Shown here piece after piece: positions 8,932 to 45,190 of a stretch of 64,000 nucleotides of DNA. Origin of the DNA: Prorocentrum cordatum (Eukaryota; Sar; Dinophyceae; Prorocentrales; Prorocentraceae); assembly GCA_963575745.1 (NCBI GenBank), contig CAUYUJ010005780.1:665001-729000 (forward strand), read 5' to 3'. Numbering within the stretch: position 1 is the stretch's first letter; every line of letters begins with the position of its first letter. The notes under the pieces were generated by a model. It saw only the letters and a program-made list of their open reading frames with translations. It was not told where the DNA came from and searched no databases. A program made the position numbers and the translations under genes.

Positions 8932-9746
8932 AATCCCACCAGCCCTCTGGGCGTCGGTGGTTTAGGGCGTTTCCTCTTCCACCCCTCCCTCTTCCCCTTC
9001 GGGGAGGGGTTTACCCCTCCCCCTACCCCCTCCCCACTGACCTGGACAGGAGGGGCGGGGAGCGGTCAGAGCGTCCAAAACAGCCTCGGCGAGGAAGCCA
9101 AAATCATTGATTTTAGCACGGTTTTGGCCCCATGTTGGCCTCCTGGGGGGGCAACGCTAATTAAAGCTCAGCTCTTCTTTGATAGATCTCCTCCAAGATG
9201 GCACAAAGAAGCGCCCAGGAGGCTCCAAGAGGTCCCAAGATGGCCCCAAGATGGCCCCAAGAGGCCCCCAAGAGGCCCCCAGAAGGCCCCCAAGAAGACC
9301 CTCAGAGGCCCCAAGAGGCCCCCCCCGAGGCACCCAAGACCCCGAAGAGCCCCCCAGGATCGCCAAGAGACCCCCAAGACGTCCCAAGAGGCCCCCAAGA
9401 ATCGCCCAAGAGATACTCCAAGAGGCTCCTAGAGGCATCCAAGAGACCTCTGGCCCGTGTGCTTGCCCTCCTCCTCCTCCTCCTCCTCCTGTTCCTCCTT
9501 CCTGCTCCTACTCCTTCTCTTCCTCCTCCTCCTCCTCCTCCTCCTCCTCCGCCTCCTCCTCATCCTATTCATCCTCCGTCTTCCCACTCCCGCATCCATC
9601 CATCCATCCACCTCCTCCTTCTCCTCCTCACTCCTTTGCACGGTTCGGCCGTCCTCCTCTTTGCTGCCGCACTTCCCTGATCACCTCAACTCGCCTGGAC
9701 ATCGTTTCGGGATGGGCTGGTGGGGATAAGCGAAGCGTCTAGAATT
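8932..9746 (+). repeat. Dispersed repeat A, copy 1
   Basis: Begins AATCCCACCAGCCCTCTGGG and ends GCGAAGCGTCTAGAAT. It matches 63,343-63,826 almost continuously except for ~330 extra bases (about 9,360-9,685) carrying a CTC microsatellite. Contains a polypyrimidine block, a unique ~150-bp core (CCAAAATCATTGATTTTA) and a CCAAGAGGCCCC array. Open frames on both strands are by-products of the stop-poor repeat. Its termini are not inverted repeats, so the class is unknown. Confidence 0.85.
9466..9640. repeat. (CTC)n microsatellite
   Basis: CTCCTC triplets and CATCCATC interruptions, lying in the part of repeat A that the 63-kb copy lacks. Confidence 0.9.
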
Positions 9747-16003: not shown

Positions 16004-16107
16004 ATAATCCGAAAGCCCTTATAACGGCGACGAGGCGACGATCGAAAGCAGTGCCCCGGCACTGCTTTGAACGCGTTCAAAGCAGTGCCCCGGCACTGCT
16101 TTGAACG
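16004..16107 (+). repeat. Left terminal inverted repeat and hairpin pair
   Basis: 16,004-16,033 matches the inverted right terminus, followed by a direct duplication of GGCGACGA that is single at the right end. Hairpin 1 (16,045-16,068) has arms AAAGCAGTGCC/GGCACTGCTTT. Hairpin 2 (16,074-16,107) has 16-base perfect arms starting CGTTCAAAGCAG with a 2-base loop. The TTATAA at 16,019-16,024 is mirrored at the right end. Confidence 0.85.
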
Positions 16108-16109
16108 TA

Positions 16110-16156
16110 TGATATGATGATATGATGATGATTATGATTGATGATGATGATGATTT
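16110..16156. repeat. (ATG)n microsatellite
   Basis: ATGATGATG/ATGATT-rich spacer between the left hairpins and the first CCGCNACTGCGG copy. Confidence 0.85.
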
Positions 16157-16223
16157 TTCCAGCGTACACTGTCCGCAACTGCGGCAATCAACATCATGCT
16201 CCACTTGCCCGCAACTGCGGCCA

Positions 16224-18172
16224 TCACCAACGCTGCCCCTCGAAGCTCCGCGGAGGGCGCTCGGCAGGTCGCCCGCTCGAGCCCCACTCGACTTCACGCT
16301 GAGGAGGCGAGCCCTCAGGGGCATTGTCCGCAACTGCGGCATGATCAGAGGGCCACCACTGCGCGCCATCAGCGCCCCATTCGCTCGAGCTCCAGTCCCA
16401 CCAGGACCAGCCCTGCCATCTCGTGGCGGGACTGCGCGCCTCCCATGCGCCGCTGCCGCTGGCGTCCCAGGACCCAGCCGCCACTGCGGCACAAGAAGGG
16501 GTCGCATCGTCGCCGTTGGCAGCTTGCGGCGGTGGCGTGTTCCCAGCTCGCTCAGCCCCAGCGTCTCTCCCCGCAACTGCGGTTCCCATCTGGGGTCGGA
16601 CGCCCTTCCCCGCAACTGCGGTGTCCGCGTAGCTGCCCTTCTTGCCGCCCTTCTTGCCGCCCTTCCTGCCGCCCTTCCTGCGTTCCAACCTCGCGGCGAG
16701 TCTTTCAGGTGACCTGCGGCACGTATTGTGCGTGAAAGCCACCAGAGGGAAGTGCGCTCCGTGCCTCGCCCTGCCGAAGGCGCCATGCCATATCTTGTCG
16801 TCGAGGTTGCCCTGCTTCACTCTGAAGGGATGGCGCACCCAATCGTCGCGTTCCCTGCGCGCCATCCTTTGCTCGAACTCCGCAACTGCGGTCAAGGATT
16901 CGCCAGATGGCGTCAGGAAGGCGCGCATCTTGTTTTCAACGGGCTCAGCCTTGGGCACGTAAGTCTGAAGCATCTTCCCAGGGCCATTCGTGTAGTCGAA
17001 GACAGGGAAAGACGGATCATGCTGGGTCGTCAAGAATCCGCCCTCACGGTCGTGCAGAACACTCAGGCCATGGTGAAGCTTGTACTGCCCAGGACAGTTT
17101 ATGAACAAAATCGCCATGCTGTCTGCCCTGGGCTGGCCGCCTGCTGTCTTCCAGGGGGTCCACGCGGCGACGTCCACAGTCAGGCCGCAATTGCGGCACC
17201 AGGACACAAGCTGGAACATGCACATGTTGAAGTCCCCCATGCAGACCTTCACGTCCCATTCCCTGACGTAGGCGACGAACCAGTTGTAGAACTCATGGAG
17301 CTTCGTGACGCCCCAGTCTTGGTTGGCCAAGCTGTGGTGGACGTGCACCGCCATGACGTTGAAGGAGCCCCCCAAATGGGCACGGCCTGGTCCAGGTGGA
17401 CGCGCACCACCATCGCCCTGGAGTACTTGTTGTGCAGCTTTGGCGCAGGAGCCTCCGCAACTGCGGACGGTTTCTTCTTCTTCTTCTTCGTTTTGGACTT
17501 CTCCTGCTTGTGGAAGAGTCTCGCAAAGTCTACGTGTTCAATGTGGCCGCCACTGCGGTCCCTCATGCCAACAAGGAGGGTCCCTGATGGCTCGCCGCCC
17601 TTAACGCACAGGTAGTTGTATTGAGTCCGACTCCGAAACCTATCGTCCGCAACTGCGGCTGCACTGTCCCTCGCGTCGTGCTCCCCACTGAGTACCGCGC
17701 AGGTCTCGTCGTCGCACTCGCAGAGGGCGATGATCTGGGCAGGGTTCGCGCGGAGCTGCGCCCACTCGTCCGCGCGTTGCGTGGGTCTAGCTGCAGTCCC
17801 TCCGAAGTTGGCCACGTAGAAGCCGACCCGTCCCGCTTCGAACTCCGTTTTCTCCTCCCATGCGTCGACAAGAGCTCTTTGTTTTTCCGACAGATTGCTT
17901 GTCTCGATGATGGGCACCCGTTTCCAGGGTCTCCGCGACGACAACACTCTCGGCATGTAGGAGTCATGTGCTGCCGCAACTGCGGCTCCCGCACCTCCCC
18001 GGGACTCAGCCTCGTCAGCGGAGGCAGCCGAGGACGCGACGGTGCTGTCGCCATCTTGCGTCCGCTGGTCGTCGTCATCATCCGCAACTGCGGCTTCCTC
18101 GTCTTTGCCTCCCTCCTCCTCCTCAGCGTTGTGGATGAACACCGTTCTGGCGAATCGAGGTCCACGGTCCAT
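16224..18172 (-). pseudogene. EEP-superfamily nuclease-like protein, one-base frameshift
   Basis: Likely an endonuclease/exonuclease/phosphatase (EEP) fold protein: a metal-dependent hydrolase of nucleic acid or phosphoester substrates. The upstream frame (chosen ATG 18,172, MDRGPRF; in-frame ATGs also at 18,211 and further up) carries an NPAQIIALCECDDE block like the metal-binding Glu region. The downstream frame carries VMAVHVHHSLA and then VCMGDFNM (GDFN at 17,237-17,226), the Asp/Asn signature of the family. The two frames join across a G6 run (coding strand; 17,368-17,373). One extra G would give a continuous ...IWGGSFNVMAVH... reading. Either the copy is mutated, the base was lost in assembly, or -1 slippage occurs. 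The C-terminal ~170 residues are low-complexity: Lys/Gly repeats, then a Trp-rich tail (WSWWDWSSSEWG). It carries several copies of the 12-bp motif. Last gene of the minus-strand series. Confidence 0.6.
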
Positions 18173-18538
18173 ACTCCCTGAGGATGCGCTCGGGCGCGCG
18201 GGCGGCCACATGCTTGCGTCTTCGCGTGCGCCACCTCGAGCCACGGTGGCTACGGAAATGGATCGTGAATGGGCATGGGGTCGGATGGAGGGAGGAGACA
18301 AAGAGGATTCGAGGAGTGGCAGAAGGAGGGCGAGGACTCAAAGGAACCGAAAGAACAACAAATGGACTGGCGGAGAAGCAGAAGGAGGGCGACGATTGCA
18401 AGGGACTGTGAAAGGATTATTTTCACAGCAGCAGGAAGACCGCAACTGCGGTTTTGCCTCATCTCCTGCCCGCGCGGGAGCCGCTTGGAAAAACAACTTC
18501 CCTCTGGACTTCCTGTGGGTCCGCAACTGCGGCCTGCA
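18173..18538. other. Intergenic spacer inside the element
   Basis: GA-rich on the plus strand (18,290-18,400); holds two 12-bp motif copies (18,443, 18,522). No start or terminator signal recognised. Confidence 0.5.
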
Positions 18539-21500
18539 TCACGCTAGGGCTGGGATTACCAGCGCCATTTGCCCTCCCAGGGTTCTCACTGTTTCCGAAT
18601 GCACGAACTGCGACAGCGCCGAACGGTTCCCAGACGCCGCGTCGTTCGCGACTTTTTGCAGCCACCCAGCAAACGTGAGCGGCCATTGCTCCTTGTGCTG
18701 CTTGCACATCTCCTCGTCCCAATGCGTCTTGAACCATGCCCACTCCCCCCTCTGCTCGTCTGAGAGGACGCCTTTTCCGCGAGCCAGGCGATCCAGAGCT
18801 GCCATCCTGTTTTTCTTGATCTTGAACTCCTCGGGATTCCACTGCGCTAGGGCGTGTTTGTTAGCCAAAGCCGTTTCCACCGCAACTGCGGCCTCCTTCT
18901 TTGCCCTCAAGGCGGCCTCGGCCTCTCGAATCTGCTTCTTGAGATCGTGCAACGCCTTCGTCCTGTCGTTCGCTTCCAGAGCCAGGCGCCGCTTTTTCGC
19001 CACCACTGCGGCTTCGTGGTCTCGCTGGGCAGTCAACGCTCGTAGGACCTCGTTGTCCTCCCGCGCCAGCTCTCTCAACCGCTTCTTTTGTTTGTGTCGT
19101 TGCTGTCGGCAATCCTGCGCTAGTTTCTCCATGCCCACTTGGCGCAGCATATCTTCCGCCTCGCGGAGCGTTTCTGCCAAGGACGTCGCCACTGCCACCT
19201 GCTCGGCCGCCTCTGCGTCGACCACGCAGTCCATGGATACCGAGGATCCTTGAGGCCCAGGTGCCGCAACTGCGGCATCGCACTGTTCCGCAAGAGCCTC
19301 GGCCCACGAGGCCTCCTCTTGCTCTTCGTCCTCCTCGTGCTCCTCGTGCACCTCCTCCTCCTCCTCCTCCCCGCCCTCCTCATCGCCCTCCTCGTGGCCT
19401 GGCTCCTGGCCTAGCGCTTCGTCGCCGAGCTTCTCCAACACGGAATCTGTGGCGTCGTGTTTCTCGTATTCGTGTATGAGACGCAGCACGTCATTGTAGG
19501 ACCATTTCAAACGTTTCTGCTCGCATTCTTCCCTCACCTCCGCGACTGCGGTGTCCACTTTTGCTCGCAGCCCCCCTGCTTCCCAGAGTTCCGCCGCCTC
19601 TCGGCAAATCTCGAGATCTCCTGACTTGTCGAAGGGCGCTCGAATTCCCACTTTCAGGAAACCTTTCGCGGCGTCCAAGTGCAACTGCACATTCTCCAAC
19701 ACTGACAGCATCAAGTCGGCGCAATCGGAACGCCGCAACTGCGGCACGTGCTTCCCCAACGCCATTTGCTGCACCAGCGCTTTGGTCTCGAGGGCAATGT
19801 ACCGGCGCTTCACGTGCTGGTTCAAGTCCGTGTCCACGGGCTGCGCAACTGCGGTCGTCCCCCCGCCGTGAATGATCAGCACGTAGCCGCGCTGCCAGGC
19901 GAGTCTCCGCACAGCGTCTGCTTTGTGCGGGGAATGGTCGTCGGCCATGAGGATGCGCCACTTTCCCCGCAACTGCGGGTCGTCGGGCCAGGCCCGCAAG
20001 TGCCGCTGCAAGAATGATACAACGTCGTCTGCGCGGTAGGACCCCTTCTCGGACGTCGCCGTGCTCACCCAAGACGGATAGCCGCGACTGCGGGCATGTG
20101 CGGCCAAGCCCTCAGCGATGACAGATCCCCCCTTGAACATTAGCTCCGCCGGCGGTGGTCCGCAACTGCGGATGTCCTCCGCGTCGCTCGACACCGTCAG
20201 GTTCGCTGTCCACCGAGCCCTGCTGTCGTCATGCGCCTCGACAAGCGGGACAATGCCACCCTTCACAGCCAAGGTCGGCTTCGAGGCCGACGACGACTCG
20301 TTGTGGTGAAAGGGCGACTGGTCCCAGTTCAGGATGTGCGGGTCGTACCCCAGAAGCTCCTCTGCAGCTGCGCGGACCCTGGCCACGTTCAAGATCATAG
20401 TCTCAAAACGAGATTGGAGCAACCATTTTGGCACCTTGTACTTGCGGTTCGGCTTCTTCATGCTCAGGCCGTAGGAGCGCCGCCACTTCACCCACCACCG
20501 AGGCCGCAACTGCGGCACCATCGGTTTGCCTCCCCGCTTCATTGTCTCCACGCAGTAGTCCGCGACGAGTTGCTTCGCCTTCGTAACCAGCAGGGATTGG
20601 GAGAACCTGGCCAACATCTTGGGCCTCTCCTCCGCAACTGCGGTTCGCTTGGCCACCGCCTTCCAGTCCACGGAGTACCTCATGTGGGACCACCACTCGT
20701 ACAGAGCGGCTTCCAGCCATGGAGCCTTGTTCGGGCGCCCTTGGTTGCCCCGCGCGCGGCGTCGGCCATGCACGCCCGCCGTGCCATGTCCACCTTGTGT
20801 GCGCCAGTTTTGAAACCACTTGGAGACGGCCTGGCGCTGCTGGACGACCCCCATGCCCTTCGGCCACGTGAACCGCCCGCAAAAAGACGCGATTGAATTC
20901 CGTGGCAGAACGCCCTCGCCCATCCAACCACAACTGCGTGCGTGCGCCTCCAGTTCTTTGCAAACCAGTTCGCGGTCTCTGAGCATGTGCGGGCACACGC
21001 GCCGCTTCTGTTCCGCAACTTCGGGTTTTGGGCGTGCGCTGGCCAGTGCGTGCGCCCTGATCTGCTCCTCCTGCAACGCCTCGGGCATAGCCTCAGCCAT
21101 GGCAAGCAATATACCCATGTCCTGCACGCCCGTCTGCCACTCTAACGCCGCCATGAGAGCGGGGCGTGGCGCGCTCGCCTCTCTCGGCGCCTCTGCTGGT
21201 TCGCCCTCGCCCTCGGAGTCGTGCAGGACCATGGGTCCAGCAGGGCCGCTGGCCCCGCAACTGCGGTACGCCCGCACCTCCTCCAAGGTTAGTTCCTGCG
21301 TGACAACGAGCATGTCGTGCAACCACGGTTCGTCCCAGCGGCGCACCCCGAAATCGTACAGTTCCTCCCGAAGCCATTTGCGCGTCTCGGCATTTTGCGG
21401 TTTCTGCAACATCATCGCCATAAGGTCAATGCCGCAGTTTCCATCGCAAACAGTCCCTAGGACCCATTGTCCCAGAGGACCGTAGAACCTGTTCAACGCG

Positions 21501-22654
21501 TCCGCCCCCTCAGAGCACACGCCACCCACCGCAACTGCGGCCACCCAGTGGCGCACCTCATGGAGAGGGTTCTCGGGAGTCACGGGCCTGAGTTCCACCG
21601 TTGTCCATTCCCCGAACAGATCCTCAGCAGCGGCGAGTACGCACGCCACGCCGTCGACGGCGCATGGCTCAGTGCACTTCTCCTTTGCCCAAGGCATGTA
21701 GAAGTCAAGGAGGTCCTTGCGGTTCTCGCCTTCCCACACGTAAGGTCGACGCCCGAACCGCAAGGCAAACAGCATGAAAGCTGAATACCCTATGTAGGAA
21801 TTCTCGGACAGAATCTGCCTCAGGAGAGCCATCACGACGTCAGGCACCGTCGCCGCCACTGCGGCCTGGATCTTTGGCGCGTCTTCCACAGGTACACCTT
21901 TCTCTGGCGCCAGGGGTGGCGCCGCGACTCGTGGCCGCAAGGCGTCGCCAACAGGCGCCGCAACTCGTGCTGCAGCCTTTGGGTCTGGGCACGGGAAGAA
22001 TGCGACCTGCGTCTTCGACCAGTTCTCTGGCAGCGGCCGCGCTGGTGGCAAGCGTGCTGGAAGTGGTGTGTCTTTGTCCGCTTCCACTCCCTCAGGAGCT
22101 TCAACCGCAATCGCGGTCTCCTGCGCAGCAGGCGGGTCTGGTGTTGCGTGCACTTGAGCTGGAGGAGCTGGAGGGACTGCTGCTGCGGGTGCTTCGGGCA
22201 CAGGGGCTGCTGGAGGTTTGGGTTCTGCGGGTGCTTCTGGTGCTGGAGCTGCGTGTCCTTCTTGCGCAGGAGCTGCGAGTTCTGCTGGTGTTGCTGGTGC
22301 TATGTGTGCAGGGGCCGAGGGAGCCGCAACTGCGGTGCCGCCTGGAGCCGCAACTGCGGGGGGTGGCGTCGCGCCCGGTCGCCAAGCAGACGGCCGCAAA
22401 TGAAAGCGAGGCGGCTCAACAAGGCCGTACTGCGACGCGGGCCACTTCGCTAGGCACGGAAAATCCGCACATGCGTGCACCTTTATCTTCTTGGGGCACG
22501 GAACGCCGCTACTGCGGCCCAAGATGTTGGCGAGCCCAGTGGTGCCATACTTCGTTTTCCTCGGTGCGCAGCCGCTGTCGTAATGGAGCCACTCCACCTC
22601 GAAATGCGTTCCGTCCTCCTCGCCATACCATGTCCGCCCCACGGGAACATCCAT
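18539..22654 (-). CDS. DDE transposase-like protein with CENP-B-type HTH and OTU-like motif
   Basis: 1371 codons, no intron. Start MDVPVGRTW at 22,654 is the first ATG. Residues ~90-260: Pro/Ala linker. ~395-435: VLGTVCDGNCGIDLMAMML then RKWLREELYDF, resembling the DGNC active-site block of OTU cysteine proteases (Cys407); no matching His found. ~585-745: DNA-binding region; WWVKWRRSYGLSMKKPNRKYK resembles the second helix-turn-helix of CENP-B/Tc5-type proteins. ~770-955: DDE_1-like core with LNWDQSPFH (Asp778), ILMADDHSPH (Asp905) and AQPVDTDLNQ (Asp941), giving a 35-residue second spacing as in pogo/Jerky-type transposases. ~1085-1115: acidic; ~1140-1260: predicted coiled coil. All three acidic residues are present, so activity is plausible. 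About 18 copies of the 12-bp motif are written into it in all three frames. It is the natural candidate to mobilise the element. Confidence 0.85.
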   Translation of the reverse strand: MDVPVGRTWYGEEDGTHFEVEWLHYDSGCAPRKTKYGTTGLANILGRSSGVPCPKKIKVHACADFPCLAKWPASQYGLVEPPRFHLRPSAWRPGATPPPAVAAPGGTAVAAPSAPAHIAPATPAELAAPAQEGHAAPAPEAPAEPKPPAAPVPEAPAAAVPPAPPAQVHATPDPPAAQETAIAVEAPEGVEADKDTPLPARLPPARPLPENWSKTQVAFFPCPDPKAAARVAAPVGDALRPRVAAPPLAPEKGVPVEDAPKIQAAVAATVPDVVMALLRQILSENSYIGYSAFMLFALRFGRRPYVWEGENRKDLLDFYMPWAKEKCTEPCAVDGVACVLAAAEDLFGEWTTVELRPVTPENPLHEVRHWVAAVAVGGVCSEGADALNRFYGPLGQWVLGTVCDGNCGIDLMAMMLQKPQNAETRKWLREELYDFGVRRWDEPWLHDMLVVTQELTLEEVRAYRSCGASGPAGPMVLHDSEGEGEPAEAPREASAPRPALMAALEWQTGVQDMGILLAMAEAMPEALQEEQIRAHALASARPKPEVAEQKRRVCPHMLRDRELVCKELEAHARSCGWMGEGVLPRNSIASFCGRFTWPKGMGVVQQRQAVSKWFQNWRTQGGHGTAGVHGRRRARGNQGRPNKAPWLEAALYEWWSHMRYSVDWKAVAKRTAVAEERPKMLARFSQSLLVTKAKQLVADYCVETMKRGGKPMVPQLRPRWWVKWRRSYGLSMKKPNRKYKVPKWLLQSRFETMILNVARVRAAAEELLGYDPHILNWDQSPFHHNESSSASKPTLAVKGGIVPLVEAHDDSRARWTANLTVSSDAEDIRSCGPPPAELMFKGGSVIAEGLAAHARSRGYPSWVSTATSEKGSYRADDVVSFLQRHLRAWPDDPQLRGKWRILMADDHSPHKADAVRRLAWQRGYVLIIHGGGTTAVAQPVDTDLNQHVKRRYIALETKALVQQMALGKHVPQLRRSDCADLMLSVLENVQLHLDAAKGFLKVGIRAPFDKSGDLEICREAAELWEAGGLRAKVDTAVAEVREECEQKRLKWSYNDVLRLIHEYEKHDATDSVLEKLGDEALGQEPGHEEGDEEGGEEEEEEVHEEHEEDEEQEEASWAEALAEQCDAAVAAPGPQGSSVSMDCVVDAEAAEQVAVATSLAETLREAEDMLRQVGMEKLAQDCRQQRHKQKKRLRELAREDNEVLRALTAQRDHEAAVVAKKRRLALEANDRTKALHDLKKQIREAEAALRAKKEAAVAVETALANKHALAQWNPEEFKIKKNRMAALDRLARGKGVLSDEQRGEWAWFKTHWDEEMCKQHKEQWPLTFAGWLQKVANDAASGNRSALSQFVHSETVRTLGGQMALVIPALA

Positions 22655-23029
22655 GAGCGGTCGCGTGGCGAACGACTCGGGCCGGGCACTCGGCTGCGGG
22701 CTACAGAACTAGGAAGAGGGAGGGGAGGAGGGAGGAGCAACTGAAGACGATGCGGAGGGGCGAAGAAGGAGGTACTTTTCAACAACGCCCGCGCGGAAGC
22801 CCCAATCATCGCGCGCACAGGGTTTCGATGCTTCACTCCATGCTTCTCTAAGAAAAACGCTCGCCCACACAAGTTGGCGCACTAAGGCGTGCACCCGTGG
22901 AACACCCTAAACCTTCCGCCTGCCTCCTCACACCGCCTCGCCCTCCGCGTGTTCACGCGCACCCAGCCACCCCGCAACTGCGGGCACTCAGTAGCCCCAC
23001 CGCAACTGCGGCCCATACGGCTTCGGGCC
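22655..23029. other. Intergenic spacer inside the element
   Basis: Presumed 5' region of the transposase gene. Contains a GGAGGGAGG run at 22,711-22,737 and two 12-bp motifs 26 bp apart (22,973 and 22,999). No TATA-like or spliced-leader acceptor that I would defend. Confidence 0.45.
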
Positions 23030-24028
23030 TCAGTCGAACAGACTGGGGATTTGGAGCTCGAGGTAATCCAGAGCCGCTTGCTTGCGCTGGTGCTGCGTCA
23101 TGCCCTCCCACTCGTAGTCGTAGCCCTTCACCGACTGCGCCGACTGCCACTTCTTCTTTGTAAGTTTCTTCACATCCATCTCGATCCTTTTGCCCTTGTT
23201 GGCACACTCTCGCGTGATGGTCGCGACCCAAGCGCCCTTGAAGTCCCAAACGACGGTGAAGCCAGAGCCGCTCCCCTGCGCCACGGGGGGGTCGACCTCC
23301 TTTTGCTTCGCCAGCGGGGTGGCAGGGTCAACCGCCGTTGCCCAGTCCCTGTCCGCCACTGCGGCCTCGTCCTTGTCGCCGTCGCCGATGTCGGGGACAC
23401 CGCCGAGGCTCACGTCGTCCACGATCATGTCGATCAGCCACCCAAGGTCTGCAGCGTCCAGCCACAACGTCCTCCGCTTGAAGCTGGCCACCCGCACGTT
23501 TCGAACGGCCGTGTCGAGCGGAAACTTCATGGGGCTCTTTGCGGGCATCTGTACAGAGTGCACAGTGGCTATGGCCGACTCCACGGCCTCGCCCCTGGGC
23601 AGGCCAGTAGCCGCCGCACGCGTTCCAGTCTTCTGCTTCTTGGCGCTGGTCGGGGTCGCTGCCTGCTTCTTCGTGGCGTCCGTGGAGCTGACCAGGGCCG
23701 ACATGGGGTCATCTGCTTCGTCCCCCGCGTCGCCGTCGCTCTCATCGTCCGCAACTGCGGCGCCGCCCTGCTTCGCGACTTCTTTCTTCAGCGCGTCCCA
23801 GGCCTTGGAGGCCTTCAAGGCCCCTGCGGTCGGTTTACCTTTGGCGCACACCTTGAGCAGCCAAGCCTTTTGCATGTTCACGTGCACGAAAGTTATCTCT
23901 CCGAGGGGCCATGCGTGGAGCACCTTGACATCCTTTTCGGGGACGGGGGTGGTCTGCGCAAGCCAACCTCCACGGATGCACAAGACCTTCTCAACGCACA
24001 CAGGGCTCCATTCGCTCGAAGTCGGCAT
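23030..24028 (-). CDS. 333-aa protein of unknown function
   Basis: The open frame extends up to 24,256 through the central palindrome, but that part is translated repeat. I take ATG 24,028 (MPTSSEWSPVCVEK) as the likelier start. Residues ~1-60: compact globular-looking segment. ~85-150: charged/Ala linker with AAVADDESDGD. ~165-225: RNVRVASFKRRTLWLDAADLGWLIDMIVDD. ~255-333: WDFKGAWVATITRE, then a Lys-rich helix and the C-terminus LELQIPSLFD. No catalytic motif. I associate this RRTLW...LGWLI...GGVP...WDF layout loosely with repetitive dinoflagellate ORFs but cannot verify that. Basic pI suggests nucleic-acid binding (inference). It contains two clear 12-bp motif copies (23,353; 23,749). Confidence 0.6.
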   Translation of the reverse strand: MPTSSEWSPVCVEKVLCIRGGWLAQTTPVPEKDVKVLHAWPLGEITFVHVNMQKAWLLKVCAKGKPTAGALKASKAWDALKKEVAKQGGAAVADDESDGDAGDEADDPMSALVSSTDATKKQAATPTSAKKQKTGTRAAATGLPRGEAVESAIATVHSVQMPAKSPMKFPLDTAVRNVRVASFKRRTLWLDAADLGWLIDMIVDDVSLGGVPDIGDGDKDEAAVADRDWATAVDPATPLAKQKEVDPPVAQGSGSGFTVVWDFKGAWVATITRECANKGKRIEMDVKKLTKKKWQSAQSVKGYDYEWEGMTQHQRKQAALDYLELQIPSLFD

Positions 24029-24123
24029 GTGTGCTACTGCGCTGGACACAGCCGCAACTGCGGGCAAGGCGGGGGTGCGGGCAGTGGGGCCGCGCGCGGT
24101 TGAGCCAGATGGCGAGCTGAACG

Positions 24124-24432
24124 CCTCCCTGGAGGGCCTCCCTCGGTCCCTGCGATCCTCGCGCCTCCCTGGAGGGCCTCCGCCCTCAGAATGCTTCAAA
24201 GCAGTGCCGGGGCACTGCTTTGAAGCATCAGATGCTTCAAAGCAGTGCCGCGGCACTGCTTTGAAGCATTCTGAGGGCGGAGGCCCTCCAGGGCCTCCGC
24301 CCTCAGCCCAGGGCCCTCCAGGCCCTCCAGGGCCTCCAGGGAGGCCCTCCAGGGCCTCCAGGGAGGCCCTCCAGGGCCTCCAGGGCCCTCCAGGCCCTCC
24401 AGGGCGGAGGCCCTCCAGGGCCTCCAGGGAGG
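24124..24432. repeat. GGCCTCCAGGG minisatellite around the central palindrome
   Basis: Tandem and inverted GGGCCTCCAGGGAGGCCCTCC units, mainly 24,285-24,432 with a few units at 24,124-24,180. Many units are themselves palindromic. Confidence 0.85.
24168..24292. repeat. 125-bp central palindrome with the terminal hairpin core
   Basis: The arms 24,168-24,229 and 24,231-24,292 are 62-base inverted complements with one mismatch. Each arm itself contains a hairpin, ATGCTTCAAAGCAGTGCC/GGCACTGCTTTGAAGCAT, the same core as at both ends of the element. Its centre (24,230) is ~12 bp from the arithmetic midpoint of 16,004-32,433. The outer TIR sequence (AGCCCTTATAACGG) is absent here, so it is not simply a junction of two elements. 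Confidence 0.9.
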
Positions 24433-24752
24433 GAGGGAGGGAGTGAGGAAATGAGTAGTTTCGGCTTCCAACTTGGGAGGAAGGGGAGAAAGGAGGAGGA
24501 GAGAGGGAGGAAGTGGAGGAAGGGCGAGGGAGGAGAGGGAGAAGGGAGGGAGGAGGTCCGTTTCGAACCTCCGTGCTCGATCGTCAGCGGTCCGCTACTG
24601 CGGCATCAGCTAACAGAAGCAGTGACACTGCAAACTACACGAGCGCTCCGCAACAGCGGTCACGCGTGCGCCCCCCCCTTCGGCCTGTTGCCCGCAACTG
24701 CGGTCACGCGAGCAAGCCGCCCTGACTGCCGCCACTGCGGCTTCTTAATTAA
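24433..24752. other. Intergenic spacer inside the element
   Basis: GGGAGGAAG purine-rich block (24,475-24,555), then 12-bp motif copies at 24,592, 24,644 (decayed), 24,692 and 24,729. Ends in TTAATTAATTAG, which overlaps the next gene's stop; the same AT string recurs at 32,223-32,234 near the right end. Confidence 0.6.
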
Positions 24753-27179
24753 TTAGAGCGACATCTTCCCGCTTTCGTCGAACCCTTTCTTCGATTTCTT
24801 CGGCGCGGGCTGGCCCGAAGGCTTCCCTTTGGCCCTCTTGGCCGCGTCCGTCTTCCACGTCTCCTCGGCCGCCTTCTTCTTCGGTGCGGTTTTGGGTCTC
24901 GCCTCCCACAGGAGCTCTTCTCCTTTCTTCACGGCCGTGGTATTCACCAGCACAGGGACATTCACGGCGAGCACGACCCCGCCTGTCCCAGGCACGCACA
25001 CCGCCAATTCTTTCGTCTCCAGCTCCATGTTGATGCGCGCAACTGCGCTTTCATTACGGCTGTTTCTCTGCTGGATCTCCTGTTCCGTGACTCTGTTGAC
25101 TGCCCAGAAGACGTGCATTGTCTCTTGCGCATCCCACTTCCATGCTCTCAACCGCACATCGTGGTCAGCCACGTCGGCGGGCGTCTTGTCCGCAGGCGGC
25201 TTGAACTCGGGGTGCAAGTAGAAGGTCGTGGGCGTGGCCCCATTTGGATCTCCTTTCACCCAGACTTGCACGGCCACCCTCTCGGGGTGCGTGCTTGCGG
25301 CGTGCACCTTGGATGCCTTTGGGACGCACGGCCACAACTCGATGCATTTTTCGTCGTTTGCAGCGGTTGCCTTGACGGTGCGTTTCTCTGTGTCAGCGTC
25401 TTGCAACACCTCTACTTGCGCTTCCGCAACTGCGGACATGTGGCGCGCCCAAAGGCACAGCAACACTGCGCTGACCAAAGCAGGCTCCCGCCCCAGCTCC
25501 TTCGCTGCCGCTGAACGCCTCCATTCGGCGATTGGCAAAGGGAAGGATCCGCGTGGAATGGCCGTCGTGTCCCTGCTGCGCTGGTGGTTCGTTGGTAATT
25601 GCGTCGTGGGGTCAAAGGAAATGACCGTCGGCATCAACTCGTGCTCCTCTGCGGAAGCCTTTGTCTTCCCCGCCACTGCGGGCTCATTCGGTTCTGGGCG
25701 CGGCAACGCGTTGAAATCGAACCAATCGGGCTTCCCGCCTCCGACTCCCACTTCGCCGAGGGCCTTCTCAAGGGCGTCCCGATTGGACTTCGGCTCCACC
25801 TTCCCCGTGGCCTCCGCGCAAGCGCGGAGGAGCGCCTGACGATGTCCTGGGATACTTCGTTCCTTGACGTGGGTGTCCTTCAGGTACTGCATGAAGCCGT
25901 CTGCGGTCAGTATGCACAGGTTCGCCTTGAACTCGATCGCCTTCTCAGGGCCCATGCCGTCGATGGCCTTGCTCAGCGTGAACAAGTACAAACGGAGAGC
26001 CGAGTTCATGTCGATGAGGAAGTCTCGGAACTCCTTCTTCTTCCACGATTGTTCTGGGTCAGGGCACCACACAGGAGTGTCAACGCCCCTCTTCCTCGCA
26101 GGCGCGTTCCTGTAGCATCGCATCACCACGGCAACCTTGACCCACGGCACTTCGTCGGGAAGCTCGCTGGCTGCCCCGAAGGCACCGAGCCGAAGGGCCC
26201 TTCTCCTGGAGTTCACGTAGACCTCGCAGAACTGGAGCAGCAAGGGGATGAACTGCGCTTTCGTGCTCCCGAGCCCAACAACGAACGAGAACAGCTCAAT
26301 GAAGTCTGGGTCCTGAACGACTCGATCGAGTTCGTGCATGACGGAGAGCTTGACCTTTTCAAAGGCAACCTGATCCGCAACTGCGGCGTGCAGCTCCGCG
26401 TCAACAGCCTTGCACAGAACACGGAGCGCGGTGAGTTCAGTCGTTCGCAACGCAAAATCGGCTCCTTTATTGAGGGACTGGCTGATGAGCGAAGCACCAG
26501 TGGGTTCCTCGTCCATGATTTTCCAGCTAAGCACTTCCATGAGCATACCCCCCTGCACGAGTTTCTTAGCGACAGGGTCATGTTCCGCCACTGCGGCCAT
26601 GTCGAGATTGCCGTCCTTATCGAGCACGCGCTTCAGCCTCGCGCTCTCGTCCTCCGTGAACTCCATGCCTTGGGGGATGGGCCACTTGGCTCCCAGGGCG
26701 CACGCCCGCAACACGAGGCACAAGTGGGAGTGCGAACACGTCCCATACGCAACGTCTGTTCCGCAACTGCGGTCGAAGCACGCAGCGAGGTGGCCGGTCG
26801 CTTTTTCCAGATTGTACTCTGTGTACGTCTGGAACTTCGGGTCCTCCTTTTTTCTCAGCACCAGCTCTTGTGCTGGGTACATCTGAACGCAGACACCTTC
26901 GTGGTCAGCTTCGGCTTGCGTGAATCCAGCCAGGAAGATTTTCACAGCGAGTTCCCGAACCCTTTCCTGCTGAGGGTAGTGCCCGCCTCGGTTGCCCGTG
27001 TGCGGGGCGAGCATGAGCACAGGGAGGCGCACCTTGTCCCCTGTCCTGAATCTAGACCTCAAGGCGTTGGCCCTCTGAAAGATCCCTTGCGTTCCGCCTG
27101 GAACTGCGGCTGTCTCGTCCGCCACTGCGGCTTTCTTGTCCGCCACTGCGGCATTATCTGTGCCGACGCTGTCGTTCAT
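24753..27179 (-). CDS. 808-aa protein of unknown function
   Basis: ATG 27,179 (MNDSVGTDNAAVADKK) is preferred. The frame is open eight codons further to a GTG, where the SVGTD codons are duplicated. Seen: the N-terminus has tandem AAVAD copies from adjacent 12-bp motifs (27,121; 27,141; 27,197). At ~45-95 is LMLAPHTGNRGGHYPQQERVRELAVKIFLAGF then EADHEGVCVQ. At ~130-160 is FDRSCGTDVAYGTCSHSHLCLVLRA, which faintly recalls ParB-like nuclease folds, though I would not call it. The middle is a helical region (~230-470), then DWFDFNALPRPEPNEP. The C-terminus is Lys-rich (PKTAPKKKAAEETWKTDAAKRAKGK...KKSKKG), consistent with nuclear or nucleic-acid association (inference). Intronless and full-length, with the same strand and motif style as the transposase. 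At least eight 12-bp motif copies in the frame. Confidence 0.65.
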   Translation of the reverse strand: MNDSVGTDNAAVADKKAAVADETAAVPGGTQGIFQRANALRSRFRTGDKVRLPVLMLAPHTGNRGGHYPQQERVRELAVKIFLAGFTQAEADHEGVCVQMYPAQELVLRKKEDPKFQTYTEYNLEKATGHLAACFDRSCGTDVAYGTCSHSHLCLVLRACALGAKWPIPQGMEFTEDESARLKRVLDKDGNLDMAAVAEHDPVAKKLVQGGMLMEVLSWKIMDEEPTGASLISQSLNKGADFALRTTELTALRVLCKAVDAELHAAVADQVAFEKVKLSVMHELDRVVQDPDFIELFSFVVGLGSTKAQFIPLLLQFCEVYVNSRRRALRLGAFGAASELPDEVPWVKVAVVMRCYRNAPARKRGVDTPVWCPDPEQSWKKKEFRDFLIDMNSALRLYLFTLSKAIDGMGPEKAIEFKANLCILTADGFMQYLKDTHVKERSIPGHRQALLRACAEATGKVEPKSNRDALEKALGEVGVGGGKPDWFDFNALPRPEPNEPAVAGKTKASAEEHELMPTVISFDPTTQLPTNHQRSRDTTAIPRGSFPLPIAEWRRSAAAKELGREPALVSAVLLCLWARHMSAVAEAQVEVLQDADTEKRTVKATAANDEKCIELWPCVPKASKVHAASTHPERVAVQVWVKGDPNGATPTTFYLHPEFKPPADKTPADVADHDVRLRAWKWDAQETMHVFWAVNRVTEQEIQQRNSRNESAVARINMELETKELAVCVPGTGGVVLAVNVPVLVNTTAVKKGEELLWEARPKTAPKKKAAEETWKTDAAKRAKGKPSGQPAPKKSKKGFDESGKMSL

Positions 27180-27203
27180 ATCTGTGCCGACGCTGTCCGC
27201 CAC

Positions 27204-27880
27204 TGCGGCCCGGAGCTCCGATATGGCGGACTATGGCACGACGTCCGTCGCTCAGGGTGGAGGCGTGTGTGCCAGGAGCCCAACGACCTGCTGAGCCGAA
27301 TGCCTGCGGACGACTGAAGGCTCAGTTTTAATCCAAAATATCGGGCGAGAGCTTGGGGGGGGTGCAGGCTGGAGGAGGGAGGGGGGTGCAAGCTGGAGGA
27401 GGACGAGGAGGGGAAGGGGAAGGAGAGCTAGGACGGAGGTGGCGGGGGGATGCGGCCTGGAGGAGGACGAGGAGGGAGGAGGGAGGAGGGAGGAGGGAGG
27501 AGGGAGGAGGGAGGAGGGACGACGACGACGACGACTGCTGACGACAGACGACAGACTTGACGACGACGACGACCGACGACGACTGCTGACGACAGACGAC
27601 AGACGCGACGACGACGACGGCAGCGACGACGACGAGGACGGACGACGACGATGATGATGACCCAGCGCGCGCACACTTATTGCAAACTGCGGCTTCGCAA
27701 CCGCGTGCTCTCCTATTATACGCAACCGCAACTGCGGCTTCGCAACCGCAACCCCGCAACTGCGGGCTATCCTACACCGCAACATGCACTCCATCGCTAA
27801 TGGGATGCACTACGCAGGCAGCAGGCGCCCAGTAGTACCGAGCTCTGTTCCGCAACTGCGGCTCCTCGGTCTTGCCGCAC
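27204..27880. other. Intergenic spacer with GGGAGGA and GAC microsatellites
   Basis: 27,350-27,520: GGGAGGAGGGAGGA-type purine repeats. 27,520-27,660: GACGACGAC interleaved with TGCTGACGACAGACGACAGAC units. 27,689-27,905: five 12-bp motif copies in ~220 bp, the densest cluster in the element. Minus-strand ORFs here are repeat translations. Confidence 0.7.
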
Positions 27881-29707
27881 TCACCGCTCGTCCGCAACTG
27901 CGGCAGATCGCGGCTCTTCGTGCTTCCGCTTGCTCGCCCGACTTGCGCGTCCGTGGCCGACGAAGACGATGTTTTGGTGGATGCCCTCGCACCAGTGCGT
28001 GCTGAAGGTCTTCTCGTTGAGCTCCTTCTGAATGACCTTGCCGATTGGGGGCAGCGCTGCCGAGCCGAGCTTTTCTCTGACTCCGCTACTGCGGTCAGGG
28101 TCATCCTCCCACTTGGGCATGTACTTCGCTGGGACCCAGCGCCGAGAGATGATGGAGTCGCTTGTTCGATGCATCCAATCAGGGAGCCACTGGGGATCGT
28201 TCTTCGACGGCCTCCCTGCAAAATCCAGGTTGCAGTCCGCAATGCGCACGTCGCACGGGCCAATGGGGAGGACGTAATTCGGATGCATGACGCGTGTGCC
28301 CTCCACAATGCCTCCGAACAGGGCGGGTCCAGCCCTGAACGCCACCCCCACCGGGCAGGTGTAGCTGGCTCCGCAACTGCGGCCAAATGCTGCGAGCTGC
28401 TCAGGCGGGATGTCAAACAGGCCGCACAAGAACCGCACATCATTTTTATGGATGGAAGCAACCGCGTCCTTGAAGAAACCTGGCTGCCACGCTGTTTGTT
28501 CTGTTTGCGTGATCTTCTGTTGGAGACGTTCGGTGACTGCGTGTCTGGACACGACGGCAAAACGGATCACCGCGGCAGGATTCACGTCGGAGCCCTTCAG
28601 GCGAAAGCGCAGGATCGTGACGGCGTGGGTGGCCCCAACAACATGACCCGCAACTGCGGTCTCTGCGATGATGTGCGGGCGCACGAGCACCACGCCCGTG
28701 TCTCTGAACAGGGCAACCGTCGTCCAGTAAGGCTCCGCGGTGTTGTTTTTCAAAGTGACAGCGTCTTCGACGGCAGTCCTGAGTCCAACGGGAACGTCGT
28801 AGCTGCAAGCGCCTTCGACGTTCCCCGTGCGGAACAGCTCGGGGTCCCATACGACGAAGACGACCGCCGCAGTTTGGTGCAAGATGCACCTGAAGACATC
28901 TTCCTTTGTTGCCACCTTCGTGATGACCACCACGTTGAACACCAAAGCGATGGTGGACGGAACCCGATTGCCGTCTTCTGTACGAAGGAATCCTTCGTTC
29001 CACTTGGGGCGTTCCCCAAAGTAGTTTATCCCTGGAGGGGACCTGGTCCGCTGCTTCTTCCGCGGTGCTCCCGCATCTTCCCGCAACTGCGGTTCCGACG
29101 GAGGCCCCGCGCGACCCCGCGACTGCGGTTCTGACAGCGGCGAGTCTTCCGTGGGAGGCGGCCTTTTCCTCGGCCGCGAATCGGCCGAGGCGGTTGTCTC
29201 GGCGGCTTTCTCCTGGGAGGCGGCCTCGTCTTCGGGTTGGGCGCCTCGTTTGGACTCGGCTGCGAGCAGCACGGCCGAGGGCGCGCTGCTCCCAGATGAG
29301 CCGCGCGCGGCACCTGGCTCGCCGGCCACCCCCGCAACTGCGGTCTCGGTGGCGGCTCCCGTCACTGTTGGTTGGTCCTGCTGCTTCGTCGGCGTCTGCG
29401 CCCGAGGCCCCCATTTTGCCTTGGGGGTCAAGTGCGCCCTGCGCAACTGCGCCTCTTCGCGCCTCCCACCAGCAGAGCTCCCACTCGCAGCGCTTATCGG
29501 CGGCGGCGGCCGATATTCCCGCGAGGAGCTAGACGACTGCGGGGAGGCCTCGCGCGGCGGTCGCTCGGGGCTTCCGCAACTGCGGTCCTCCGTCGGCTCC
29601 GCGACTGCGGCATCCGCGGCAGCCCCTTGCAGGCCGAACCTTTCCCGCAGTTGCTGCTTCAGCTCGGCGAACCGCTTGTCGACCTCGGCTTTGCGACCTG
29701 GGTCCAT
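27881..29707 (-). CDS. 608-aa protein, possible degenerate EEP-like fold
   Basis: Start MDPGRKAEVDKRFAELKQQL (29,707) opens a short charged helix. Residues ~30-225 are a Pro/Ser/Glu-rich linker carrying DRSCG, AVAEP, EPQSRG and EPQLR from the 12-bp motif. The globular part is ~225-580. IALVFNVVVITK and HQTAAVVFVVWDPELF could be the first strands of a nuclease fold. PAAVIRFAVVSRHAV, then KNDVRFLCGLFDIPPEQLAAFGRSCG (~424-446), lines up by eye with VMAVHVHHSLA and WDVKVCMGDFNMCMFQLVSWCRNCG of the EEP-like gene at 16-18 kb. If so, the catalytic GDFN is replaced by GLFD and the protein is probably inactive. This is an inference from pattern only. The C-terminus is basic (SRASKRKHEEP). Confidence 0.6.
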   Translation of the reverse strand: MDPGRKAEVDKRFAELKQQLRERFGLQGAAADAAVAEPTEDRSCGSPERPPREASPQSSSSSREYRPPPPISAASGSSAGGRREEAQLRRAHLTPKAKWGPRAQTPTKQQDQPTVTGAATETAVAGVAGEPGAARGSSGSSAPSAVLLAAESKRGAQPEDEAASQEKAAETTASADSRPRKRPPPTEDSPLSEPQSRGRAGPPSEPQLREDAGAPRKKQRTRSPPGINYFGERPKWNEGFLRTEDGNRVPSTIALVFNVVVITKVATKEDVFRCILHQTAAVVFVVWDPELFRTGNVEGACSYDVPVGLRTAVEDAVTLKNNTAEPYWTTVALFRDTGVVLVRPHIIAETAVAGHVVGATHAVTILRFRLKGSDVNPAAVIRFAVVSRHAVTERLQQKITQTEQTAWQPGFFKDAVASIHKNDVRFLCGLFDIPPEQLAAFGRSCGASYTCPVGVAFRAGPALFGGIVEGTRVMHPNYVLPIGPCDVRIADCNLDFAGRPSKNDPQWLPDWMHRTSDSIISRRWVPAKYMPKWEDDPDRSSGVREKLGSAALPPIGKVIQKELNEKTFSTHWCEGIHQNIVFVGHGRASRASKRKHEEPRSAAVADER

Positions 29708-30372
29708 GGCGTGGCCGCGCGCGGCCCCCGTCCGACGGGGGAACTGCGGCCGGCTTGGGAGAGGAAGGACAACGAGGGAGACGGCGGGGATGAGGACGAG
29801 GAAGGCGAAGAGGAGGATGGAGAGGACGCGACGGAAGAGGATGGCGCGAAGAGCTCAGACGAGGGTGAAAGGAGCAAGGGGACTGCGACGAGGATGACGG
29901 GGCAGAAACGGAGGAGGAGGAATCAACAAAGTCCGCAACTGCGGCCCTCGGGGGGGACTGCGACGAGGACGACGGGAAATGACTCGGCCAACGGAGGCGG
30001 GCTACGGCCAACGGAAGGAACTGCGACGAGGAGGAAAGGCGGAGGGAGGAGACTGCGACGAGGACGACGGGGAAGGGGCGACGAGGACGACGAACAACTG
30101 CGGATCCATCTGTTTAAGTACCTGTCTCCGCAACTGCGGCCGCGCTAATTAACGTCACGAGTGCTTCAACGGAGGTGATGCGCGCCCGAAGCACCTAATT
30201 ACAGCGGTCAGTCGTGGGAGCGCCGCAACTGCGGCCAAGCTGTATGAAGTCGCTAGAAGGCAGCGCCGCAACTGCGGCCGAAAGCGCGCATAGTGAGTCA
30301 AACGAGCGCGGCGTCACGCGATCGGTCCCCGCAACTGCGGTTCCATGGCTGCGCAATCCCGCAACTGCGGTG
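29708..30372. other. Intergenic spacer with GAGGACGACGGGG repeats and motif cluster
   Basis: Purine-rich (GACTGCGACGAGGACGACGGG units at 29,880-30,090), then motif copies at 29,934, 30,127, 30,222, 30,266, 30,330 and 30,358. Open + strand frames are shadows of this stop-poor DNA. Confidence 0.6.
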
Positions 30373-31539
30373 TCAAGGCTGCGCGGACCACCGCGGTTGC
30401 AGCTGCGCCCCCTTGCTCGCGTCGAACCGCCCAGGATTCGGATGGGCGTGCAGCATCTTCCAGAACGTGAACGTTCCGTGGCCATCGCTCTTGCCGAGAC
30501 CTGCCCTCGGGCCCCGCACGGGATGCGAGTGCGGCTCCACCTCATACGTGTTGAACTTCGGGCTAGACCAGGATGGGTGGACGCGAATGCCCGAGCCGTC
30601 GTCGCGGATGAGGACGAAATCCCACTGGGGCAGAGGGATTCTTTGCGCCTGTCCTCTGTCCACCCCTTTCGTGTGCCTCATGTTGTCGAGACTGCTAGGG
30701 CACGGGCGGCACTCGCAGCGGACCAACCCGCGACTGCGGTCATTGTCAGGGCCGCACACGACGCGCAGCATTGTAGGTCCATCCATCTGCGCGACCATCT
30801 CCAGCCAAGACCACGGCACTTTGACAGTGTGGTCCCAGTCCCAATCCCTGTTGTCCTGCGCCTTCCCCTTTGCGCGGTACTTAAGGATCTTCGAAATTTC
30901 CTCCGCAACTGCGGTACCTCCGAAGACGGGCGTGCGGCTGCCGAAAGGGTTTTCTCGGTCTTCGTACTCGTCTCGGAACCACTTCAAGGCCGCGTTGTGC
31001 TGCTTATAATTGCCGTTCCAGTTCGCCCTGAAGTTCTCGAAGAATTCCAACTTGAAAATTGGCAGCGGCTCATTGCGCACAATTTGAAACAGCGCAACTG
31101 CGCCTTGTTCTTCGCGCCCTGGGGGAAGCAGGGGACCGCCTCCTTTGCCCGCCGCTGTTGCGGCCGCGGGCTCCGCGGCAGGAGAACCTGCCGAGGCACT
31201 CGAGCGGCCACCTTCCCATGCATTCCACCAGCCACCCTCGTCGTCCCACCAGCGGGCGCCCTCCATTCCCCAACCCTCGCATCCGTTGCCGCCCCATCCG
31301 CCGCCCTCCCATCCGCGACTGCGGTCACTTCCGTCGCCGCCATCCTGCGCTTTTCCTCTCCATCCGCCAAGAGAATCTCCGCCGCCCCAGCCGCCACTGC
31401 GGTCACCTCCGCCGCCGTATCCGCCACTGCGGCCGCCCCAACCCCCACTTGTTCCCCAACCGCCGCCGCTGCTCTTTGAAGAATCCGCAACTGCGGCCCG
31501 TGTTTCCTCTTCCGCTTTGTCATCCCACCCTGCACGCAT
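30373..31539 (-). CDS. 388-aa Gly/Trp-rich protein of unknown function
   Basis: The frame opens at 31,743, but its first ~68 codons translate a GAG/CTC microsatellite into a false hydrophobic stretch. ATG 31,539 (MRAGWDDKAEEETRAAVAD) is preferred. Residues ~20-125: Gly/Trp/Ser-rich repeats (GGWGGRSGGYGGGGDRSGGWGGG) in which variant 12-bp motifs encode RSGG, followed by GARWWDDEGGWWNAWEGG. A comparable Trp-rich stretch ends the EEP-like protein at 16.4 kb. Residues ~165-388 are globular: LPIFKLEFFENFRANWNGNYKQHNAALKWF, WDWDHTVKVPWSWLEMVAQ, CECRPCPSS. No family recognised. First gene of the minus-strand series and nearest the right end. Confidence 0.55.
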   Translation of the reverse strand: MRAGWDDKAEEETRAAVADSSKSSGGGWGTSGGWGGRSGGYGGGGDRSGGWGGGDSLGGWRGKAQDGGDGSDRSRGWEGGGWGGNGCEGWGMEGARWWDDEGGWWNAWEGGRSSASAGSPAAEPAAATAAGKGGGPLLPPGREEQGAVALFQIVRNEPLPIFKLEFFENFRANWNGNYKQHNAALKWFRDEYEDRENPFGSRTPVFGGTAVAEEISKILKYRAKGKAQDNRDWDWDHTVKVPWSWLEMVAQMDGPTMLRVVCGPDNDRSRGLVRCECRPCPSSLDNMRHTKGVDRGQAQRIPLPQWDFVLIRDDGSGIRVHPSWSSPKFNTYEVEPHSHPVRGPRAGLGKSDGHGTFTFWKMLHAHPNPGRFDASKGAQLQPRWSAQP

Positions 31540-31879
31540 CTCTGCCCCGACTGCAGGCCGCGGAGGCGGGCGCGAGCCCGCCCAACCGCCGTGAAACCTA
31601 CCGTCGGCGCGGGCTTGAGCCGAACGTGCATGGAGGAGGAGGATGAGGAGGAGGAGGGTGAATGTGAGGAGGATGATGCGTTCCTGGGAGGTGTGCCTTC
31701 GCGTGCAACACAAGAGCCCTGAGAATTCCTGAGGCCCCTCCAACAGCCAAGGACGCGGATGACAAGAAAGTCGAGAAGATTGGGAACCGATTGAGGATTA
31801 AGAGGCGTGCGACGAAAGGGATGATGATGACGAAGAGGAAGATCAGTGAAGGGGAGGAGCGGACAGGAATTATGGAGGA

Positions 31880-32215
31880 GTGATAGCAGAGGAGGAAGAG
31901 GGGGAAGGGGGAGGAGGAGAAGGAGGAGGAGGAGGGAGAGGAAAAGGGGGAGGAGGAGGAGGAGGAAGAAGGTGAGGAGGAGGAGGAGGAGGAGGAGGAA
32001 GAGGAGGAGGAGGAGGAGGAGGAGGAAGAGGAGGAGGACGACGACGACGAGGAGGAGGAGGAGGAGGAGAGGGAGAAGGAGAACGGGGACAGGAGGACAA
32101 GGACGGAGAAATATAACAAATGAGGGGGAGGAGGCGGAGGAGGAGGAGGACGAGGAGGAGAAGCAGGAAGAGGAGGAGGAGAGGGGGGAGGAAGAGTGCG
32201 CGTGAGACTGGGAGA
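31880..32215. repeat. (GAG)n purine tract
   Basis: ~335 bp of GGAGGAGGAAGAGG with GACGACGACG at 32,038-32,050. No 12-bp motif occurs in this last kilobase of the element. A spacer between gene 1 and the right terminus. Confidence 0.95.
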
Positions 32216-32329
32216 ACGAGGTAATTAATTAGAGAGGGAACGGGGGAGGAGGGAGGACAAGGAAGAGCATACAGCGACGAGAAGAGGAGAAGGAACAGAC
32301 GAAGGCTCCTGCTGATCGCATTTCCGCAT

Positions 32330-32433
32330 CGTTCAAAGCAGTGCCGGGGCACTGCTTTGAACGACTGGTGATGTTCAAAGCAGTTCCCCGGCACTGTGTT
32401 CCATCGTCGCCGTTATAAGGGCTATTGGATTAT
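32330..32433 (-). repeat. Right terminal inverted repeat and hairpin pair
   Basis: Hairpin 1 (32,330-32,363) has perfect 16-base arms identical to left hairpin 2 apart from the loop (GG for CC). Hairpin 2 (32,373-32,402) is imperfect (CAGTTCCCCGGCACTGTGTT). 32,403-32,433 is the inverse of the left terminus with two mismatches. Confidence 0.85.
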
Positions 32434-40329: not shown

Positions 40330-40645
40330 ACGGCGTTGAAGACAGTCCAAGACGCCCCCAAGAAGGCCCCAACACGACTCAAGAGGCTCCCAAGAGGCGC
40401 CTAAACCGGCTCAAAGAGACGCCAAGACGGCCCCAGAGGCTACCAAGACGGCCCAAGAGGGCCCCAAGAGGGGCCCAAGACGGGGAGCCCGAACCAAAAA
40501 TCCGAGCCTTCCGCCCCAAGAAGAACCGTGGAGGCCCCACGAGGCCCCCAAGAGGCCCCAGGAGACCCCGAAGAGGCCCCCAAGGGGCCCCAAGAGGCCC
40601 CCAAGAGGCTCAACAGATGCCCCAAGAGACACCAAAACGGCTCCC
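40330..40645 (+). repeat. CCAAGAGGCCCC array 3
   Basis: CCCCCAAGAAGGCCCCAAC/GAGGCCCCAAGAGGCCCCC units interrupted by GAGCCCGAACCAAAAATCCG (40,488-40,507). Confidence 0.85.
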
Positions 40646-45029: not shown

Positions 45030-45190
45030 CCCGCCCCAGGAGGCCCCCAAGACCCCCCAAAGAGGCCCGAGGGGGCCCCAAGACGCCGCCAAGGAGCCCC
45101 AAGAGACCCCCAAGAGGCCCCCAAGAGGCCCATAGGAGGCCCCAAAGAGGCCCCCAAGAGGCTTCAAAGAGGCCCCATAGAGCGCTCGAG
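45030..45190 (+). repeat. CCAAGAGGCCCC array 4
   Basis: CCCCAAGAGACCCCCAAGAG-type units, trailer GGCCGGCGGAGTGAGCGGAG at 45,192. Confidence 0.85.

Follow-up and report, generated by a model that had tools for sequence, protein, structure and literature searches.

A 64-kb window of the Prorocentrum cordatum genome (contig CAUYUJ010005780.1; the window being the whole stretch of DNA analysed, with a G+C content of 59.3%, the genome mean being given as 59.7% in PMC10666404) was found to contain a large element bounded by terminal inverted repeats (TIRs), through which a 12-mer, CCGCNACTGCGG, is repeated in one orientation (Table 1). TIRs and a terminal TA would be expected of a pogo or Tc1-mariner-like transposon; here the TA on both sides falls within the matching TIR sequence, so a target duplication is not proven. 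The traceable genes of the element lie on the strand opposite to that of CCGCNACTGCGG, and the motif in its coding-strand form, CCGCAGTNGCGG, is sense to them. An assembly artefact is unlikely because identical or near-identical proteins (P0001, P0010 and P0025) come from other sources.

Table 1. Features located in the window (positions in window coordinates; ORF, open reading frame).
Feature	Position	Strand	Basis or remark
TIR element of 16.4 kb with TA at each outer edge	16004..32433		alignment of the two termini
Array of 69 CCGCNACTGCGG	16173..31496	+	exact-match search; spacing 21-705 bp
Single-mismatch copies of the 12-mer	17185..17196; others start at 19000, 19843, 21013, 24648	+	mismatch search
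GCGCAACTGCGC copies, outer pair altered on both sides	25037..25048; others start at 29441, 31092	+	sequence search
Palindromes of the type TTCAAAGCAGTGCC/GGCACTGCTTTGAA	16047..16110, counterparts near 32330-32393		near both element ends
Inner copy of the TTCAAAGCAGTGCC/GGCACTGCTTTGAA palindromes, 63-nt arms	24167..24293		palindrome search
Two overlapping ORFs in different frames, 5 motif copies each	16224-17375, 17249-18301	-	ORF list
1371-aa ORF, putative DDE transposase, 15 motif copies	18539..22654	-	weak DDE_1 match; relatives P0001-P0005
408-aa ORF, without family match, 3 motif copies	23030..24256	-	ORF list and Pfam
816-aa ORF with 7 motif copies; SET fold predicted (residues 578-775)	24753..27203	-	relatives; model and fold match
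608-aa ORF, no assigned function, 9 motif copies	27881..29707	-	relatives P0025-P0027
456-aa ORF, Gly-rich	30373..31743	-	the array's last motif falls just within the first ATG (31539)
CCCAAGAGGC repeats, partly tandem arrays	9256-9383, 34834, 34920, 40389-40600, 45109-45153, 50364, 58597-58850, 63668	+	word count
Tandem array, period 84, 6.6 copies	54150-54705		repeat search

The array of the 12-mer

Searching the window for exact matches returned 69 copies of CCGCNACTGCGG, all on the + strand, with none on the - strand and none on either strand of the approximately 47.5 kb flanking the element; dinucleotide shuffles of the window gave a mean of 0.08 copies and a maximum of 2. Five further copies in the + orientation inside the element carried a single mismatch and three were of GCGCAACTGCGC, the variant in which the outer pair is changed symmetrically, giving 77 copies in total. 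Matches to the - strand were single-mismatch matches only (four inside the element and two outside), one of the inner four being the near-palindrome at 17185, which is counted on both strands. Fragments of the 12-mer were the top-ranked words in a 10-mer count within the element, and the centre of the motif was AC in 69/69 copies, with no copy of the reversed core.

The first copy begins 169 bp from the left end of the element (16004), and 937 bp separate the end of the last copy from the right end (32433). A motif-free stretch of the latter length at the right end has a chance of 0.016 at the mean density, which mildly supports a link of the 12-mer to the transcribed part. Copies were irregularly spaced, with a mean interval of 225 bp, and a regular spacing, when tried, was not convincing (coefficient of variation 0.78 versus 0.93 simulated, P = 0.075). 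These data bear out the initial annotation, in which about 75-80 copies had been reported in a single orientation, at intervals of about 200 bp, confined to the element and stopping within 170 bp of its left end and about 900 bp of its right. That the 12-mer occurs throughout the host genome and just happens to be dense in the element is highly improbable, judging from the window, where no exact copies lie in the approximately 47.5 kb of flanks versus 69 in 15.3 kb.

Constraint on nucleic acid

As had also been proposed, the motif occurred in genes and spacers alike and in all three frames: 50 of the exact copies lay in ORFs, where they encode Ala-Val-Ala (32), Arg-Ser-x-Gly (13) or Pro-Gln-x-Arg (5), and 19 lay in spacers, at a density of 7.6 copies/kb versus 3.9 copies/kb in ORFs. 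The seven ORFs contained 39 Ala-Val-Ala tripeptides, 32 of them encoded by the 12-mer and three of the other seven by a near variant, GCAGTTGCG followed by C. Outside the motif, in five of the seven ORFs, GCA made up 21% of Ala codons and GTT 16% of Val codons. Neutral decay does not leave proportions such as those observed, with 69 copies perfect and 5 carrying a single mismatch. That nucleic acid, and not protein, is under constraint is well supported, and very probably the 12-mer is a selected nucleic-acid tag.

Relatives of the element are known as proteins only, and their motif was deduced from peptides. Protein searches returned relatives of the putative transposase at 80, 49, 35 and 33% identity, of the 816-aa protein at 79% and 31-44%, and of the 608-aa protein at 97, 65 and 53%. 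Motif peptides were conserved at 10/12 sites in P0002 (P = 0.034), 6/9 in P0027 (P = 0.0017) and 3/7 in P0017 (P = 0.0088), where P describes the excess over prediction from neighbouring windows and is uncorrected; one site in P0026 reads PQSR in place of PQLR, a difference confined to the free position. The near group contained 40 Ala-Val-Ala, 21 Arg-Ser-x-Gly and 11 Pro-Gln-x-Arg peptides. Ten distant proteins contained 64 Ala-Val-Ala tripeptides, where composition predicts 10.3, and three of Ala-Thr-Ala, which the reversed motif would encode. The residue preceding Ala-Val-Ala had a codon able to end in CC in 55/64 cases versus 20/63 for other Ala-x-Ala (P = 3e-10), and the residue following it had a codon starting with G in 57/64 versus 38/63 (P = 2e-4). 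Since CC-GCN-GTN-GCN-G predicts both neighbour biases and a plain protein-level preference would not, these peptides point to a footprint of the motif, apparently in sense orientation and apparently kept in related elements. Of the earlier view that selection or an insertion process acts on DNA and not on protein, the part that sets nucleic acid against protein agrees with the codons, the spacer copies and this footprint.

Nucleotide pattern searches matched 20 stretches (pattern A1, viral_contigs), 62 stretches (A1, genome_contigs) and 37 stretches (A3, viral_contigs), with no relatives in any of the three sets. Motif pairs were found in 42 stretches of viral_contigs, with at least three copies in 4/42 loci (L006, L009, L017 and L039), and these four were taken as unrelated repeats, the motif recurring every 24 bases in L009 and L017, which share a contig.

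Alignment of the relatives also bears on the idea, raised in the initial annotation, that the 12-mer is a self-spreading micro-insertion. Twelve bases would preserve the frame, the copies are identical, and at site 26386 a gap of exactly four residues was observed in P0012-P0015 and P0018 (with other residues in P0019 and P0021); however, no other clean motif-length insertion or deletion was found in the three protein alignments, and the near relatives have most sites in common and in place. Across 15 relatives, 41/141 site-by-relative cells were conserved, and 59 of the remaining 100 were aligned without a gap. Despite the one exact gap, we now disfavour this explanation, which we consider very unlikely.

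Possible reading of the proposed tag as DNA or RNA

The dyad arms of the 12-mer were nearly invariant, and the free base was A in 48/69 copies, which completes a 5-bp dyad around the AC centre. This A went against codon usage in the Ala-Val-Ala frame (23/32, P = 3e-12) and was present in 16/19 spacer copies; on the coding strand, a purine preceded the motif in 59/69 copies and an A followed it in 32/69. The dyad arms and the near-invariant sequence, together with these base preferences, favour readout as DNA. Our tentative preference, to which we attach somewhat less than even confidence, is for a polar double-stranded DNA tag belonging to one family of large DNA transposons and read by a protein encoded by the element. 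The 12-mer would then be the self-identity mark of that family, its reader most likely recognising a polar duplex site composed of inverted TGCGG arms around the asymmetric AC centre. Bound along the whole 15 kb, the reader could mark the element as self, for example against host silencing or by holding the element together for transposition. The logic would be VANC-like, with the predicted SET-fold protein as candidate effector, and sites would be gained and lost mainly through substitution, with selection acting on tag density.

Several points weigh against such a duplex tag. Chief among them is strict polarity, which an ordinary duplex binding site would not be expected to show. The idea of a binding site or self-recognition tag, present in the initial annotation, is the best to survive, yet the reader and its binding are what we infer. 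The SET fold comes from a single model (predicted local distance difference test, pLDDT, 63; best Foldseek E 0.038, none below 0.001), and the motif of the relatives comes from peptides. Conservation of sites reached significance (P<0.05, uncorrected) in only 3/15 relatives and not in the other 12. Few Arg-Ser-x-Gly (6) and Pro-Gln-x-Arg (3) peptides are present in the ten distant proteins, whose motif may therefore be partly different. Lastly, two features lean towards RNA: borderline surplus pairing at -1/+1 and covariation of the outer pair.

These last two features belong to a reading in which a sense-strand hairpin, CCGC-AGUN-GCGG, is bound on the transcript by an element protein, for instance to escort, protect or mark the element's own RNA. 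Every copy, including 19/19 in spacers, reads in the sense direction of the traceable genes, as does the footprint in the relatives, and the array begins just inside the first ATG (31539) of the 456-aa ORF. The outer pair was C-G in 69, G-C in 3 and C-C in 1 of 73 core sites (hypergeometric P = 6e-5), the -1/+1 pairing excess was borderline (22 versus 16.3, P = 0.023 including G-U), and the hairpin was predicted to be stable in isolation (-5 to -6.5 kcal/mol). In its native context, however, the predicted hairpin probability (median 0.14) was not raised relative to implanted motifs (0.357 versus 0.347, P = 0.42; antisense 0.474 versus 0.439, P = 0.23), the stem was near-invariant with no extension at -2/+2 or -3/+3, and the motif is densest in the spacers. 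No Rfam match was obtained at gathering thresholds. An RNA tag is, in our estimation, rather unlikely.

Strict polarity, dyad arms and an asymmetric centre could also describe a directional DNA signal that acts on a moving machine such as a polymerase, a helicase or a recombination enzyme. Chi sites and replication barriers are directional DNA signals of this sort in bacteria, but we know of no comparable system in eukaryotic transposons, no such enzyme was identified and the spacing of the copies is near random, which makes this signal improbable. The site is also rich in CpG (two per strand), and 3/4 core sites with altered outer bases differ at the first and last base together, as might be expected of a methylation target or of a product of biased repair, which one model proposes for HIP1 (PMC4390886). 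Against this stand the confinement of the motif to the element within the window, its polarity and the lack of any methyltransferase family among the element ORFs tested with Pfam, and we regard such an origin as very improbable.

Taking the DNA and RNA forms of self-reading together, we give even chances to the view that a family of giant eukaryotic DNA transposons carries a polar identity code of 12 bases along its full length, coding sequence too, with proteins bent to fit it, and has long kept this code so that a reader encoded by the element can distinguish the element's DNA or RNA from that of the host. If an element protein does read the tag, transposons would own a whole-length self-recognition code able to reshape their proteins, and how the proteins of an element locate its long DNA or RNA within a multi-gigabase host could be tested directly with one 12-mer. 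The 12-mer would also be a simple signature for finding further tagged elements. The present case also shows that tripeptides recurring in such proteins can be the trace of a signal in the nucleic acid.

Known systems, further genes and repeats

The nearest comparison is with VANDAL transposons of Arabidopsis, in which the transposon's own VANC protein reads many copies of a short motif, motif and reader being family-specific and acting in anti-silencing, where binding of the protein lowers methylation; the VANC21 motif, YAGTATTAY, is described there from non-coding regions, often as tandem repeats (PMC5735166). Here too a short motif is present in many copies in one transposon (69, with a peptide footprint in relatives), but 50/69 lie in ORFs, dispersed in a single orientation at intervals of 21-705 bp, and the reader is postulated. 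CACTA (En/Spm) elements are described as carrying many copies of a 12-17-bp subterminal motif, in direct and inverted orientation, read by the element protein TNPA (PMC2613891). An element-specific short motif repeated many times in a large element is common to both, whereas the present 12-mer is element-wide, with 69/69 copies in one orientation, and is missing from 0.9 kb at one end. HIP1 of cyanobacteria is a perfect, GC-rich palindrome found across genomes at very high density (PMC4390886). The 12-mer resembles it in density and as a GC-rich palindromic oligomer, but is asymmetric, polar and missing from the flanks, and the likening to HIP1 or DNA uptake sequences made in the initial annotation is a poor fit.

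Dispersed RNA packaging signals are found on the sense strand only. In RNA viruses they occupy many sites along one RNA (PMC6281560). The array shares the dispersal and the sense strand, but its stem hardly varies and prediction does not favour folding in context. Yeast RNase III recognises hairpins with AGNN/NGNN tetraloops and the 5 base pairs next to the loop (PMC4334505); the sense-strand loop AGTN fits AGNN, but the stem of the 12-mer is 4 bp and a fifth pair is standard in 22/69. Every one of these systems has one or more defining features that the array lacks; it was therefore filed under none, and judged by these comparisons its form appears to be new. No description of such an array was recognised among the titles and abstracts listed from the open-licence literature, and no open-licence full text contained both CCGCAACTGCGG and 'dinoflagellate', papers with the 12-mer only falling outside this negative.

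The palindromes of the TTCAAAGCAGTGCC..GGCACTGCTTTGAA type have GCAGT in common with the 12-mer, and the middle pair could be an old junction of two elements.

The DDE_1 match of the putative transposase (E 0.094) lies below the Pfam cut-off, as does a match to HTH_psq found in the relative P0005 only (E 0.043). D778, D905, D906, D941 and D943 were invariant in the alignment of six putative transposase sequences, and the structure model (pLDDT 46) was too poor for a fold search. In the N-terminal half, the stretch TVCDGNCGIDLM resembles what we take to be an OTU-type cysteine protease motif, with no Pfam match. The model of the 816-aa protein weakly suggests a SET fold, for which no sequence-level support was found in Pfam or by sequence in PDB. 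A 30-35-residue stretch of this ORF (25863-25967) recurs identically in two unrelated gene models of P. cordatum, one for casein kinase I (P0023) and one with a thioredoxin domain (P0024), beginning at the same residue; element sequence may serve as an exon there, or the gene models may be wrong. A Gly/Trp/Arg-rich region (30373-31540) in the 456-aa ORF is presumably like that of RNA-binding or condensate proteins; part of it is encoded by the motif itself (RSGG, RSRG). One of the overlapping ORFs at 16224-18301 contains MGDFNM, which we take to resemble endonuclease/exonuclease/phosphatase proteins, with no Pfam match. A Pfam scan of the remaining element ORFs gave nothing above cut-off, and PDB matches by sequence for element proteins (3 chains each, E 0.3-0.8) were not convincing.

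Outside the element, the top word of the 10-mer count was CCCAAGAGGC, which is unrelated to the 12-mer and was present in 18 copies on the + strand, with none on the - strand and none inside the element.

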